Virus record (IMG/VR): IMGVR_UViG_2088090015_000084
Coordinates: 1 to 20,324 of that record
Origin: a virus
DNA: 20,324 bases
Strand: one strand, 5' to 3'
Shown here: piece by piece, positions 4,346-20,324 of the stretch
Position numbering within the stretch: position 1 is the stretch's first letter
How the letters are laid out: each line of letters opens with the position of its first letter
Made by a program: the position numbers and the translations under genes
The notes under the pieces: generated by a model
Told to the model about the DNA's origin: nothing
Seen by the model: only the letters and a program-made list of their open reading frames with translations
The model's database searches: none

Positions 4346-4771
4346 TTAAAGTTCTTTCATATAAGCTCTCTCGTAAAGCTTATACCCTTTCTTTTCGTAG
4401 ATCTTTCCAACCCTAGGGTCGAGGGAGGTCAGTGTTATCATTGTGCAACCAGCGACATTCTTAGCCCAGTATTCGAAAGCTTCTAATAGCTCTGCCCCTT
4501 CACCAGACTTACGTTTGTCTTCATTGATCCACCAAGCTATTTCACTAGCGAGTAAATGAGGTCCGAAGACGAAGGGAGATACTTGACCTGCAAGGAAACC
4601 TACACCGGGTTGAAGCAGAATAATCATTTGGTTCTGCGCGCCAGTAACTATAGTTTCGATGAGATTTCTAATCTGTCCTTCATCTGCGTATTCATTGTAA
4701 CCAGTCTTTTTGATGAACTTCATGCTCATCTCAAGTACTTCTGGGAGATCTTCTATGGTTGCTATTTTCAT
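4346..4771 (-). CDS. GNAT-family N-acetyltransferase
   Basis: A 141-residue protein with the layout of a single GNAT domain. The acetyl-CoA pyrophosphate loop appears as RKSGEGA at residues 87-93, matching the family signature R/Q-x-x-G-x-G/A, and is followed by a helix (94-106). The C-terminal strand-helix-strand contains KIYEKKGYKLYERAYMKEL (123-141), typical of the family end. The N-terminal half (1-60) fits the first helices and strands. GNAT enzymes move an acetyl group from acetyl-CoA to an amine; the substrate cannot be read here. The start overlaps the stop of the upstream small gene as TAATG. It lies where T7 carries gene 13, between the tail/lysis genes and the internal core proteins. 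It may therefore be packaged in the virion or act late on a phage or host protein; both are inferences. Confidence 0.88.
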   Translation of the reverse strand: MKIATIEDLPEVLEMSMKFIKKTGYNEYADEGQIRNLIETIVTGAQNQMIILLQPGVGFLAGQVSPFVFGPHLLASEIAWWINEDKRKSGEGAELLEAFEYWAKNVAGCTMITLTSLDPRVGKIYEKKGYKLYERAYMKEL

Positions 4772-14768: not shown

Positions 14769-16568
14769 TTACGTTCCTTGTACAGCTCCGGCGAACTGTT
14801 CTTGATCGAAGTCATTTCCCATGCCGGTGGGAGTGCCCATCACTTGCATTGTTTGCTGTTGTAGAGCAGCAGATAGACGCTGTCCTTCAGCTTGTTCGGA
14901 GAGTGCGACGTACGGTACGACGATCTCACGGTCTTCAATATCGAAGGAAGTTTCAAACATCTTCGACAACTTCACACTTGAGAAGTGTGGCTGCACAGTA
15001 GCCCACAGAGCAGACTGCGACAGCGCTGTAAGGTTCTGAATAAGCTCAGCCTGCTCAGCAAAGTGGCGTGCTGCCAGCGGACGTATCCGACCTACTCCAG
15101 TAATGTCTTCGACGTTCAGAGTACGGAAGGTACTTGCCTTCAGTTCGTCGTCGAATACCTTGATTGTAGTCGATCCTGACAGCATACGCCGAGCAAGCTC
15201 AAGCATTGCATTCAAAATAGGTTCGAGAATTTGTTCTTCGAATTGTTTAATCTTGTTCTGGAACACTCGGGAGGCAGCGTTCTCAAGGCGTTGTACTTCA
15301 TACTTCGTTTTCTCGCCCGGTGTGCGGAAGCCCATAGCTTCCTTGGGTGCTCCAGCCATCTCCTCCATGAGCGCTGCGATGTAAGCATTTTCGCTATTCG
15401 CTTGTAGAATCTGTACTTGGGGTTGTATGACTTCGACGTCACCTTCTTCAGACGCATAGATGATTTCTCCCGGTTGGAGAGTAAACGCTTCAACGAAGCC
15501 CTTAACTTTAATCATCGGATATGTCGCCCAGTCCCAGATATCCGCCTTCATGTTCTCGACGTGATCCATCCGGTATTGCATACCAACGAGATTTGCGAGA
15601 GGAGACATGCCCCAGAGATTATCTGGACGCTTACGCCAACTGGCGTGGAATATCGGGGGATACCCGAAGTAACTCGGATTAGGTTTCTTGCTAATCAACT
15701 TATGACGGTCAACAACCATAATGACATGGTTCTTATACAGTTCATCGTTTTCAGTGTCATACATGTCACCGTAGAAGGTAAGGAGTTCGACAGTATCTGA
15801 CTGGAGATACATCTGAAACGAAGAGAAACCATCCATGCTATAGAGGTTGTCTAGCTGTTGCCATTCACCAGCTGCAGTCTTAGCATGTCCACGGATTTCC
15901 TTGAGGTAGTCCCACAACTCTTCATACTCTTGACGATTATCATCGTTGGACATACGATTGAGAAGTTCTTTCAGTTCTCCGAGAGAGATGACTGATTTAA
16001 CGATCTTAGGAGAAACTGTATAATTCTCCGCTGTCGGGTTCATCACCTGATCAATCGGAGAGATACGTTTCACTGCGGGGCCGACGTATCCGCTCTGCAT
16101 CTGTGTCGGCTGCTCTGCGCGTTGATCAACCCACTCGACAGTAGCGATACAGTTACCCATATCGATGTAATCGAGAATGATCTTGTCCATCTCGTGTTTG
16201 AATGAAGGTTGTTCCATCATCCAACGAGCGTAATTCGTTATAGCATCCCTTTTCTGTTTGCTATCCGCCGCGCGTTCGTTCGCTTCCCATATGACATTGT
16301 TACGTTTCGGGAAGAGAGTAGCCGTATAATTACTATACAGATTATCACGTATCTGACAAAGTTTCGGAATCGTCGTCGTATTCTTCCAAGGAGTGGCTCC
16401 CGACGAAGTGTGACGGGTGTCCGTTGCGAATACATAACGTCGAATCTCCTCAATGTCAGTCTTCCATGTCTGACGCATATTGTCCCAAGTAATCCACTTC
16501 TCAGCAATTTTAGTTGCTAAGTTATCTGGAGAGACGACGTCTTCAATTGTAACTACACGGCTTGTCAA
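14769..16568 (-). CDS. Portal (head-tail connector) protein, TTG start
   Basis: About 599 residues, against 536 in T7 gp8. The N-terminal part has KWITWDNMRQTWKTDIEEIR and GATPWKNTTTIPKLCQIRDN followed by YSNYTATLFPKRNNVIWEA, a standard podovirus portal region. The middle contains HVIMVVDRHKL, FHASWRKRPDNLWGMSPLAN (the portal clip/wing sequence) and MQYRMDHVENMKAD. The C-terminal part has the long helix GAPKEAMGFRTPGEKTKYEV with ENAASRVFQNKIKQFEEQIL, typical of the crown-proximal helix. Twelve copies form the packaging channel. No ATG or GTG exists in the right place. A TTG at 16566-16568 makes a TTGA overlap with the terminase stop and is preferred. A TTG at 16581-16583 is the alternative, adding five residues, but has no ribosome binding site. 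Confidence 0.9.
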   Translation of the reverse strand: MTSRVVTIEDVVSPDNLATKIAEKWITWDNMRQTWKTDIEEIRRYVFATDTRHTSSGATPWKNTTTIPKLCQIRDNLYSNYTATLFPKRNNVIWEANERAADSKQKRDAITNYARWMMEQPSFKHEMDKIILDYIDMGNCIATVEWVDQRAEQPTQMQSGYVGPAVKRISPIDQVMNPTAENYTVSPKIVKSVISLGELKELLNRMSNDDNRQEYEELWDYLKEIRGHAKTAAGEWQQLDNLYSMDGFSSFQMYLQSDTVELLTFYGDMYDTENDELYKNHVIMVVDRHKLISKKPNPSYFGYPPIFHASWRKRPDNLWGMSPLANLVGMQYRMDHVENMKADIWDWATYPMIKVKGFVEAFTLQPGEIIYASEEGDVEVIQPQVQILQANSENAYIAALMEEMAGAPKEAMGFRTPGEKTKYEVQRLENAASRVFQNKIKQFEEQILEPILNAMLELARRMLSGSTTIKVFDDELKASTFRTLNVEDITGVGRIRPLAARHFAEQAELIQNLTALSQSALWATVQPHFSSVKLSKMFETSFDIEDREIVVPYVALSEQAEGQRLSAALQQQTMQVMGTPTGMGNDFDQEQFAGAVQGT

Positions 16569-18136
16569 GCTACACCGCCCCAACGGGAATGAAATTTAAA
16601 CACTGAGTTTTCTGCTTTCTTTTGTCTATAAGTATCAATCGGAGCGATTGCGAAGTCGATCGCAGAAGCTAGTGCGTCTTTGACGTCATCGTGTGCTGGA
16701 TTGGTATAAATCAATTCTTCTTCAAGTACTTGGCAATTACCGCCCGGATAATGCCAAATTTGATGGTTGGCGTACTTAGGTTCAAGTACAGCCATGATCC
16801 GCTCTTCTTTGCTACCCTGCCATCTGCTGGGACGATATTCGTCAACAACAAGGGACAAGCCCATAGGCCGGATGTAGCTTTCCTTCAGATCTTTAACGAT
16901 AACCTGCTGAGCGACAGATACTTCTGCTCGTATCCGTCTGAAACCCCACTTCTCGTATAGTTTGAAAATACGCTGGAAGTAGTCAGACATCTTGTCAGTC
17001 TTAAACCGATCTATGTCTAGGACGTAGAAGTTTTGGTTCCCATCCACGCCGACAACCACGATTGACGTGCTGTCGGATTTCTTTCCTGTACTGTAGGCGA
17101 AGTCGACGGCTGCGCAGACGTTGAGTCGGCTTCCTTTGAAACTCCAGTGTCCGTCTCTTCGGGAGACGTAGTTGGGGTCGTAATATTGGAAGAGACTTCG
17201 GTTGATTGGAGCGGAGTCGAGATCATTTGGATCGTTGTAGTATTGGGCTCTGAAGTGTACTTTATTGAGATATTGCGCCCGTTTCTTTGCAAGTTCTTCT
17301 GAATTGAACCCGAACCACTTTCCATCTGGGCTTTGGCTTCGGGGCCAAAGGAATTCTCCAGTTCCGTCTCCAAGGTTTTCAACAGCATGTTCCTTGTCCT
17401 CAAAAAGGGGCTCAGATCGAACAATGCTTCCCAATTCATCATATTCATCAATCTCCATTTCTCTAAGGCTAGAGTAGAGGTCTTTAGGATGGTACCGAGT
17501 ACCGACGACCCATTCTCTGGCGTTTACTGTTTCGATGGAAGAGAGAAGTGAATACTGATCCTTTATCTTTTCTCGGGTGTCTTCTTGGTAAGCATTGTTT
17601 GCCACGACCACGTCATCGAGGACTGCAATATCACAATGCATACCAACAATGTTGGTAGTAAGACCCGCAGTCCAGATAGAAGGATCGCGGATAGCCCATT
17701 CTTTACGTTTTGGATGATCAAGAGAGATTTCCCGTTCTGTCCACTTCTCTCGCTTCTGCTCTTCCTTATTAACCATCTCTGGCCAATAAAGACGATAAGT
17801 ATCTGAAGTAAGGATATCCTTAATAAACTTCAGCTGCTTTATAGCCAAGTTGGATGTGGAAGAAATATACAGAACCCTTAGCGTAGGGTCCCTTGTCAAC
17901 TCCCATGCGACACGGTACGCAATAAGTGCGGACTTCATGTGGTCACGAGGGAGCAACAACAACTGATGATTTTTCGCATCAGGTCGTGTCCACCAATTGA
18001 TTACATCGCGGTGGATATTCCCAAGCATACGCTTAGGATGAATAAGATTAATAAAAGACTCAAGACTATTTTCAGCTTGTATCTTCCGATCTTCTCTTTG
18101 TTTTTGTAGCTCGGTCGCTACTTTCTTCTTAACCAA
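16565..18136 (-). CDS. terL: Terminase large subunit, TTG start
   Basis: A 523-residue packaging motor; T7 gp19 has 586. The ATPase domain has a variant Walker A, LPRDHMKSA (62-70), in which a His-Met-Lys-Ser replaces the common GKS/T, as in T7-type terminases. Walker B is CDIAVLDDVV (168-177), and a coupling motif follows in VVGTRYHPKDL (210-220). The nuclease domain is RNase H-like: AVDFAYSTGKKSDSTSIVVV with Asp345, RAEVS with Glu405, and AHDDVKDALASAID with Asp483/484/487. It cuts concatemers and pumps DNA through the portal. The start is TTG at 18134-18136, because an in-frame stop lies just upstream and the next ATG is at codon 37. It overlaps the upstream gene end by eight bases. No small terminase subunit is recognisable, though one of the upstream small genes might serve. 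Confidence 0.93.
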   Translation of the reverse strand: MVKKKVATELQKQREDRKIQAENSLESFINLIHPKRMLGNIHRDVINWWTRPDAKNHQLLLLPRDHMKSALIAYRVAWELTRDPTLRVLYISSTSNLAIKQLKFIKDILTSDTYRLYWPEMVNKEEQKREKWTEREISLDHPKRKEWAIRDPSIWTAGLTTNIVGMHCDIAVLDDVVVANNAYQEDTREKIKDQYSLLSSIETVNAREWVVGTRYHPKDLYSSLREMEIDEYDELGSIVRSEPLFEDKEHAVENLGDGTGEFLWPRSQSPDGKWFGFNSEELAKKRAQYLNKVHFRAQYYNDPNDLDSAPINRSLFQYYDPNYVSRRDGHWSFKGSRLNVCAAVDFAYSTGKKSDSTSIVVVGVDGNQNFYVLDIDRFKTDKMSDYFQRIFKLYEKWGFRRIRAEVSVAQQVIVKDLKESYIRPMGLSLVVDEYRPSRWQGSKEERIMAVLEPKYANHQIWHYPGGNCQVLEEELIYTNPAHDDVKDALASAIDFAIAPIDTYRQKKAENSVFKFHSRWGGVA

Positions 18137-19085: not shown

Positions 19086-19225
19086 TACTCAGGAATCTGA
19101 GTCCAAGCGATGCCACCTACGAAAAGAGGAAGGGCAATGTTGGGCATCAGCCAGAGTGCGACTGTACCTGCGATAATGAAACCGACAGAGAATACAATCT
19201 TAGCGATATGGAATGTTTGGGTCAT
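19085..19225 (-). CDS. Small membrane protein, 46 residues
   Basis: ATG at 19223-19225 and TAA at 19085-19087, each in a TAATG overlap with its neighbour. The protein starts MTQTFHIAKIVFSVGFIIAG and ends LPLFVGGIAWTQIPE. It has one long or two short hydrophobic segments (residues ~9-27 and 29-41), so it is almost entirely membrane-embedded. The double overlap and lack of any other coding explanation support it. Holin-like or membrane-anchoring functions are possible but unproven; it lies far from the main lysis cassette. Confidence 0.78.
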   Translation of the reverse strand: MTQTFHIAKIVFSVGFIIAGTVALWLMPNIALPLFVGGIAWTQIPE

Positions 19226-19587
19226 TACTTAGCTTTCTTCATCTGCGGAGTAATCGTAGATTTGTCCTGAACTTCTGCCGGGTCGACCATGACCTTTGAA
19301 ACTTCAACGGGTTCGGTTTTACTTTTACCCTGCTTCTCGGCTATCTTCTCCGGATTCTGTCCATCACGGAGTTCCTGAAGTTCCTTCTGCTTAATCACCT
19401 TGACGTTATCGAAATGCTTATTCGACTGGTCCTTAATACCCTTGACTTCGTCTTCAGTGAAATGAAGCTCATTGAGCTTAACCGAAGAACGCTGGTTCCA
19501 CTGATCGAGGATGTCGTACATCGGGGAAACGTCAGCGCCGTCAGAACGGCCTAGGACTTGTACTTCGCGACCTTTGTAAATTGCCAT
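19225..19587 (-). CDS. First late-operon gene, unrecognised 120-residue charged protein
   Basis: This is the first gene of the minus-strand unit, with AAGGA seven bases before the ATG. The N-terminal third (MAIYKGREVQVLGRSDGADV) looks beta-rich. The rest is highly charged and helical, containing FTEDEVKGIKDQSNKHFDNV (43-62), KVIKQKELQELRDGQNPEKI and a Lys-rich end (TITPQMKKAK). No enzyme motif or membrane segment is seen. Its place ahead of structural genes might suit a small terminase, assembly or DNA-binding protein, but nothing in the sequence decides. I do not recognise a family. Confidence 0.78.
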   Translation of the reverse strand: MAIYKGREVQVLGRSDGADVSPMYDILDQWNQRSSVKLNELHFTEDEVKGIKDQSNKHFDNVKVIKQKELQELRDGQNPEKIAEKQGKSKTEPVEVSKVMVDPAEVQDKSTITPQMKKAK

Positions 19588-19639
19588 AGTTAATTCCTTT
19601 GTGTTAATAACTGCCGGGGTAAATCTTTAGGCACACTTA

Positions 19640-19656
19640 TCAACCCTTGACATAAG
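19640..19656 (+). repeat. Direct repeat, left copy (possible operator)
   Basis: The sequence TCAACCCTTGACATAAG matches the right copy at 14 of 17 positions, 41 bases away. It covers the -35 box of the rightward promoter and reaches the -10 box of the leftward one. Confidence 0.55.
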
Positions 19657-19675
19657 TATAACACAAGTTTAGAAT
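19647..19675 (+). promoter_or_regulatory. Rightward sigma70-type promoter for the early genes
   Basis: A perfect TTGACA (19647-19652) and TAGAAT (19670-19675) are separated by 17 bases, which is consensus spacing. The expected start is near 19682, giving a leader of about 24 bases with GGA six bases before the first ATG. It is nested with the leftward promoter. Confidence 0.85.
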
Positions 19676-19684
19676 AGGAGTCAA
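19655..19684 (-). promoter_or_regulatory. Leftward sigma70-type promoter for the virion operon
   Basis: On the minus strand TTGACT (19684-19679) and TATACT (19660-19655) are 18 bases apart, each one base off consensus. The expected start near 19648 gives a leader of about 60 bases before the first late gene. Its -10 lies in the rightward promoter's spacer and the reverse is also true. Confidence 0.78.
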
Positions 19685-19705: not shown

Positions 19706-19846
19706 ATGAGTTTAAATGGAATGAGAATGGGAGGAGACCATAAGAATCCTCTTAGTAAGAAAGATAAGATAAGTCTAACTATAGGATGTCTAGGTAGTAT
19801 AAGTATAGTAGGTACTATAGGATATATCTTATGGAGATTACTATGA
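19706..19846 (+). CDS. Small single-membrane-segment protein, first rightward gene (46 residues)
   Basis: ATG at 19706-19708, with AAAGGA ending six bases before it. The N-terminal part is polar and basic (MSLNGMRMGGDHKNPLSKKD). A C-terminal membrane segment follows around residues 23-44 (SLTIGCLGSISIVGTIGYIL), ending WRLL. Five of six Ile codons are ATA and Leu is CTA or TTA, unlike the capsid genes. The end overlaps the next gene as ATGA. Being first behind a strong promoter, it may be an early host-interaction protein; no family is recognised. Confidence 0.7.
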   Translation: MSLNGMRMGGDHKNPLSKKDKISLTIGCLGSISIVGTIGYILWRLL

Positions 19847-20025: not shown

Positions 20026-20324
20026 TGAAATCACATAACGCTGACGATAAAAGATATCTTAAGAAATTAACACGAGCCTTAGATATTTCTGATCGAAGAA
20101 TTAAACTGGACGGATGTGGAGATTTCAACATCTTTGGAACAAGAGGTAAGATCAGTACTGACGGAGAGTATTGGTACCTTTGTGTTCAAAGAACACTGCG
20201 TACTTGGAACAACGTAAAAAAGAATTTATCCTTCATGGAAGTTCACCAAGACGGTGACGAAGAAGGTGTTTTACGTCTTGCTCGGATGCCTTTCAGAGAT
20301 GAAGCATCGTTGGTTCGAAAAACG
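20025..20324 (+). CDS. Partial gene of an alphaproteobacterial-type unknown protein
   Basis: The frame is open from an ATG at 20025-20027 to the right edge (100 codons). The start overlaps the preceding stop as TGATG. After a basic helix (MKSHNADDKRYLKKLTRALD) comes a beta-rich part with GRRGR-like FGTRGKISTDGEYWYLCVQR, then TWNNVKKNLSFMEVHQDGDE and EGVLRLARMPFRDEA. I recall similar proteins (signature around the SF-V-QDGDDEG-L-L-R-P segment) as unnamed genes in Rhizobiales genomes and phages. The function is unknown. This is recollection, not a search result. Confidence 0.75.
   Translation, partial: MKSHNADDKRYLKKLTRALDISDRRIKLDGCGDFNIFGTRGKISTDGEYWYLCVQRTLRTWNNVKKNLSFMEVHQDGDEEGVLRLARMPFRDEASLVRKT

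Follow-up and report, generated by a model that had tools for sequence, protein, structure and literature searches.

A conserved pair of interlocked, opposed sigma70-type promoters, predicted between the replication and structural arms of Zobellviridae-like soil phages

Two opposed sigma70-type promoters interlock within a 38-bp core that lies between the leftward structural arm and the rightward replication arm of an uncultured phage, and the view that both are real promoters has strong support in relatives from the conservation of their geometry, the orientation of the genes and the fit of the translation starts. The stretch of DNA analysed here, which we refer to as the window, corresponds to a virus record of 20,324 bp and covers only part of the genome. 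The best explanation for the arrangement, and one that we consider probable, is an interlocked pair on which host polymerase would sit in one orientation at a time, with a shift from early to late transcription during infection; the firing of both promoters with host polymerase, the exclusive occupancy and the shift are the parts of this reading that we infer.

The rightward promoter, TTGACA-17-TAGAAT, matches the consensus at 11 of 12 positions, and the leftward promoter, TTGACT-18-TATACT, at 10 of 12, with an extended -10 (TGT) in addition; the spacers are 17 and 18 bp, respectively. All RNA ends in this analysis are predictions, with the start taken as 7 nt past the -10 and D defined as the distance between the two predicted starts. 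On this basis the starts fall at ~19682 (+) and ~19648 (-), each inside the -35 of the opposite promoter, giving a D of 34 bp. A first-pass annotation of this DNA had placed these boxes at 19647-19684, with each -10 in the spacer of the other promoter, each start at the other's -35, and a full -35 and -10 set on each strand; direct reading of the sequence confirms the boxes and their coordinates, the nesting follows from those coordinates, and the two -10s are indeed separate, 9 bp apart. The features of the core and its flanks are as follows.

19647..19684, both strands: interlocked opposed promoter pair, 38-bp core, read from the sequence and kept in relatives
19647..19652, plus strand: rightward (early) -35, TTGACA, with an exact TTGACA at the same offset in 16 family members
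19670..19675, plus strand: rightward (early) -10, TAGAAT, with a predicted start at ~19682
19679..19684 (read 19684-19679), minus strand: leftward (late) -35, TTGACT, by direct sequence reading
19655..19660 (read 19660-19655), minus strand: leftward (late) -10, TATACT, with a TG extension and a predicted start at ~19648
19225..19587, minus strand: first leftward gene, 120 aa, of the MALLRNR/MAIYK family in relatives, with a ribosome site (AAAGGA) upstream
19706..19846, plus strand: first rightward gene, a 46-aa small protein with a likely membrane segment, with a ribosome site (AAAGGAAG) upstream
16565..18136, minus strand: terminase large subunit (TerL), which served to find and order relatives

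A generic promoter scan of the core region picked up 3 promoter-like sites where 3.6 were expected, which is no excess, and the case must therefore rest on strength and nesting. Of 3,180 random 20-kb sequences that matched the window in dinucleotide composition, not one contained an equally strong nested pair, and the two core promoters are the best rightward and the best leftward promoter of the entire window. The nested pair at 19647-19684 is thus a real observation and not a product of chance.

The window derives from an uncultured phage of Zobellviridae-like type and is a fragment of its genome. TerL is ~60% identical to that of the cultured cobaviruses (ICBM1/P12053L), the portal matches phrog_332, and both proteins are homologous to their Zobellviridae counterparts; 80 TerL loci were recovered from IMG/VR, mostly closer to the window than the cultured cobaviruses are, and the group consists of soil phages. 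Left of the core, the leftward arm encodes terminase, portal, scaffold, capsid and tail, some of these names being assigned by position and by homology to cobaviruses. A GNAT-type acetyltransferase (4346-4771, minus strand; phrog_1249) also lies in this arm, and cobaviruses have one at the same place. To the right, the window holds small rightward genes, the first of which has one weak homologue, at L096 (42% over 43 aa); in relatives of ~50 kb the rightward arm continues with a TOPRIM primase-helicase, PolA, a gp2.5-like SSB and a Cas4-type exonuclease. The first-pass annotation had spoken of early and late units, and this gene content fits that division (primase-helicase, DNA polymerase and exonuclease rightward; terminase, portal, capsid and tail leftward); a time-ordered switch between the units would be a further step. 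A T7-type RNA polymerase (PF00940) was absent from 18 relatives of 43-52 kb in a search in which the T7 control scored E = 1e-109; two opposed arms without such a polymerase, as judged on the relatives, are in keeping with the cobavirus literature (PMC6775973, PMC6918029), and transcription of both arms by host polymerase is therefore most likely. A search for the host in genome contigs returned two metagenome-assembled contigs of unlike taxa, which are uninformative, and a nucleotide search of the core region in annotated phages gave no match. We also noted that five contigs, the window (ending at 20324), L045, L054, L127 and L139, end ~640-740 bp into the early arm past the core, perhaps at a hypervariable early region or a genome end. 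A TTGACA-18-TACAAT found ~10-15 kb into the early arm of G001 and many relatives was considered as a strong promoter and rejected; it is probably conserved coding sequence (LDIKYGNGVQF), and makes a case for caution in promoter scanning.

The arrangement is kept across much of this group. When 2.9 million viral contigs were scanned with patterns that demanded TTGACA on the early side and TATAMT on the late side, the exact nested 38-bp geometry was found in 20 stretches, 16 of which belong to this phage family; a control pattern with the promoters shifted by 3 bp matched 6 times in the same contigs and never in the family. A 42-bp form, first seen in relatives, gave 15 matches in the scan, 7 of them in the family. 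In a survey of 54 family regions that did not use these patterns, the best promoter pair upstream of TerL had D = 34 in 15 and D = 29 in 8, against a random expectation of 0.014 regions per D value. The least circular test took the single strongest leftward promoter of each region (43 qualified) and asked for an exact TTGACA on the opposite strand within 60 bp: it stood at -8/-9 in 17 regions and at -12/-13 in 8, a total of 25/43, counts that should be read as indicative since the pattern scans supplied six of the nested members and the window served as the query; matches at other offsets were few and scattered. In all ten long records (~50 kb) that carry the pair, its leftward promoter ranks first among the leftward promoters. 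Both geometries occur in several branches of the TerL tree, and the pair is absent from other subclades, which account for most of the ~18 of 43 family regions that are without it; the lineage at large can therefore live without the pair. An alignment with the three closest TerL relatives (L001-L003) did not reveal a homologous junction, the upstream DNA being different. Group-wide retention suggests that the pair matters, and the sharpness of the conservation suggests that its geometry is under selection. In some other subclades (L020, L029/G018, L061, L069) the best opposed pair stands face to face, with D near 0; these cases are few and come partly from sister lineages, and we do not claim them as a further overlap geometry.

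The 38-bp and 42-bp forms differ by a 5-bp displacement of one promoter against the other (D of 34 and 29), which leaves 9 bp between the -10 hexamers in the former and 4 bp in the latter; in nearly all members of both forms the -35/-10 spacer is 17-18 bp, with 16 or 19 bp in a few. On both sides, genes with ribosome sites or a fitted ATG start directly after the core. The late -35 touches the early ribosome site or shares bases with it; in most 38-bp members this -35 is TTTACA, which the opposite strand reads as TGTAAA and which leads straight into the ribosome site TGTAAAGGAG of the early gene. The eight 42-bp members (G007, G008, G009, L026, L059, L129, L137, L139) all have their late ATG on the predicted late start, where it overlaps the early -35 (ATGTCAA), so that the late message would be leaderless. 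Two unrelated late gene families occupy this position; one of the genes (LDQRG) is preceded, in 38-bp members, by a leader that contains a ribosome site, and one of the families is a small, cysteine-rich, secreted-looking protein (…AHDWY…CCG…CHP…).

The predicted late RNA of the window and four relatives begins with AAGGG and contains a CCCC loop and a 4-bp stem, located in the window as follows.

19612..19648, minus strand: 5' part of the late leader, a probable H-type pseudoknot, with compensatory changes among 5 sequences
19648-19644, minus strand: AAGGG
19633-19630, minus strand: stem strand UGCC
19619-19616, minus strand: CCCC
19615-19612, minus strand: stem strand GGCA

The stem varies in sequence and its pairing is kept in 20/20 cells; each of the four pairs has changes on either side, and its covariation score was reached by 0/500 shuffles. 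This test leans towards structure, as the stem segments were excised manually ahead of the alignment, an initial version of which had been displaced by one base in two rows. The covarying stem, together with the invariant GGG/CCC, suggests an H-type pseudoknot at the extreme 5' end of the message, and a covarying leader that begins at the predicted late start lends support to that start. A scan against Rfam found no match for the pseudoknot and returned one chance match to NEAT1_2. G001 and L019 carry other, covarying 5' hairpins instead (GCUGCC/GGCAGC versus GAUGGC/GCCAUC).

We propose that the core would serve as the main promoter site of a soil Zobellviridae-like lineage that has no T7-type RNA polymerase of its own. 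Host sigma70-type polymerase would recognise either of the two near-consensus promoters and would occupy the core in a single orientation at any moment; in one orientation it would start the rightward replication arm and in the other the leftward structural and packaging arm, and the balance would move from early to late during infection via some factor or a rising number of templates. As each start lies in the other promoter's -35, one bound polymerase should cover the other site; mutual exclusion is therefore likely, a sound deduction from the size of the polymerase, and mutually exclusive binding has been described for other overlapping promoters (PMC4207663, PMC12825309). One may postulate instead that both promoters are real and that their nesting is genome compaction and nothing else: occupancy would be far from saturation, the arms would fire side by side without regulatory effect, and late timing would come from gene dosage or other controls. 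The tightness of the flanks would suit such a scenario, with minimal leaders, an early ribosome site that overlaps the late -35 and, in 42-bp members, a late start codon that overlaps the early -35; moreover, bidirectional promoters of E. coli compete only at high activity and little at the basal level (PMC12825309). The geometries are sharply fixed, however, at D = 34 or 29 rather than spread over a range, and the near-consensus boxes are of a strength at which competition is to be expected, such that we regard compaction alone as possible but somewhat doubtful.

What might tip an exclusive pair from early to late was sought among the conserved early proteins, which comprise SSB, a Cas4-type exonuclease, NYN, a TOPRIM-helicase and PolA, with no recognisable transcription factor. 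A ~440-aa protein (a 441-aa ORF in G001) that matches neither Pfam nor PHROG is conserved in the relatives; 10 of 11 genomes encode it as their first large early gene, 1-2 kb into the rightward arm, and it is a candidate for the missing regulator or for a single-strand binding role. A more specific alternative, which we consider improbable, is that a phage factor weakens -35 recognition by sigma region 4 and thereby flips the site, the early promoter leaning on its -35 and the late one on a good, often extended -10. The T4 protein AsiA is a precedent for a factor that acts on -35 recognition. In 38-bp members the early -35 is the better of the two (p=2e-4) and the late -10 the better (p=3e-4), a comparison partly biased by scan patterns that fixed TTGACA on the early and TATAMT on the late side; a TG extension occurs in 0/18 early and 10/18 late promoters. 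Against this, such a protein was not recognised among the conserved early genes, most 42-bp members have TTGACA on both sides, and the late-strand TTTACA may stem from the early ribosome site.

It is very unlikely that a single direction is in use and that the second set of boxes arises incidentally, for example from a symmetric regulator-binding operator (TTGACA ... TGTCAA arms) or from a recombination site. The -35 boxes do form an inverted repeat, where a single regulator site would be economical, but an operator or recombination site of rigid build should hold its arms at a constant distance, whereas this distance differs by subgroup (38 versus 42 bp) as each -35/-10 spacing stays at ~17-18 bp. 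This looks like two promoters and not one operator, and both sides of the core lead straight into genes with ribosome sites or a fitted ATG. An interlocked pair with exclusive occupancy remains the reading that we prefer. In its boldest form, a single 38-42 bp site would run the main early and late programmes of a lytic lineage that has no polymerase of its own, the orientation in which polymerase lands would pick the genome half, two geometries 5 bp apart would exist, one of them leaderless on the late side, and a phage factor or template dosage would flip the orientation; we offer this version tentatively, and would not be surprised to see it fail.

The cultured Zobellviridae, such as the cobaviruses and among them Lentibacter phage ICBM1, resemble the present lineage in their opposed replication and structural arms, homologous TerL, lack of an RNA polymerase gene, and a strong sigma70-type promoter that points leftward where the structural arm begins. 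However, none of seven cultured or assembled Zobellviridae-like genomes (ICBM1, CRP-4, MEP401, Pecta, ICP2, T5S1 and Manatee Spring) has a nested pair at the arm junction. Short direct terminal repeats between the arm heads characterise the cobavirus subgroup, and ICBM1 has its repeat there; a 38-bp core, as seen in assembled contigs, leaves no room for one between its promoters. In Bacillus phage phi29, host polymerase reads opposed units from the neighbouring early A2b/A2c and late A3 promoters; these promoters do not interlock, and the phage protein p4 shifts the balance. A literature search for P22 Pant/Pmnt and for overlapping phage promoters returned nothing of use within the collection of papers searched. 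Zobellviridae-like phages lack the T7-type polymerase that orders T7-like transcription, and a lineage-wide interlocked pair provides a small, testable target for whether polymerase orientation alone can set the balance of early and late transcription.

In geometry, the closest described case is the Pc/Pr pair of the Bacillus plasmid pLS20 (Ramachandran et al. 2014, PMC4207663), in which divergent promoters overlap and polymerase binds only one of them, forming a switch. The phage core likewise has opposed promoters with separate -10s and with polymerase sites over the same DNA; each of its starts lies within the other's -35, and in pLS20 one start lies 6 bp upstream of the other promoter's -35. 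However, one pLS20 promoter is weak and needs the regulator Rco and DNA looping, whereas both phage promoters are near consensus and the conserved early genes held no recognisable regulator, and the plasmid switch governs conjugation whereas the phage core stands at the early/late divide. The bidirectional promoters described by Warman, Grainger and colleagues also start RNA both ways from a short stretch of DNA on which two polymerases cannot bind together; their -10 elements are shared or reciprocally overlapping, with starts 7-25 bp, commonly 18 bp, apart (PMC10268837, PMC12825309). In the phage core each direction has its own -35 and -10, the -10s are 9 or 4 bp apart, and the predicted D of 34 in the window, and of 34 or 29 in relatives, falls outside that range, so the core is not a bidirectional promoter in Grainger's sense. 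Beside the known bidirectional promoters with a shared -10, the phage pair would set a further geometry, in which the -10s are separate and the predicted starts lie 29 or 34 bp apart.
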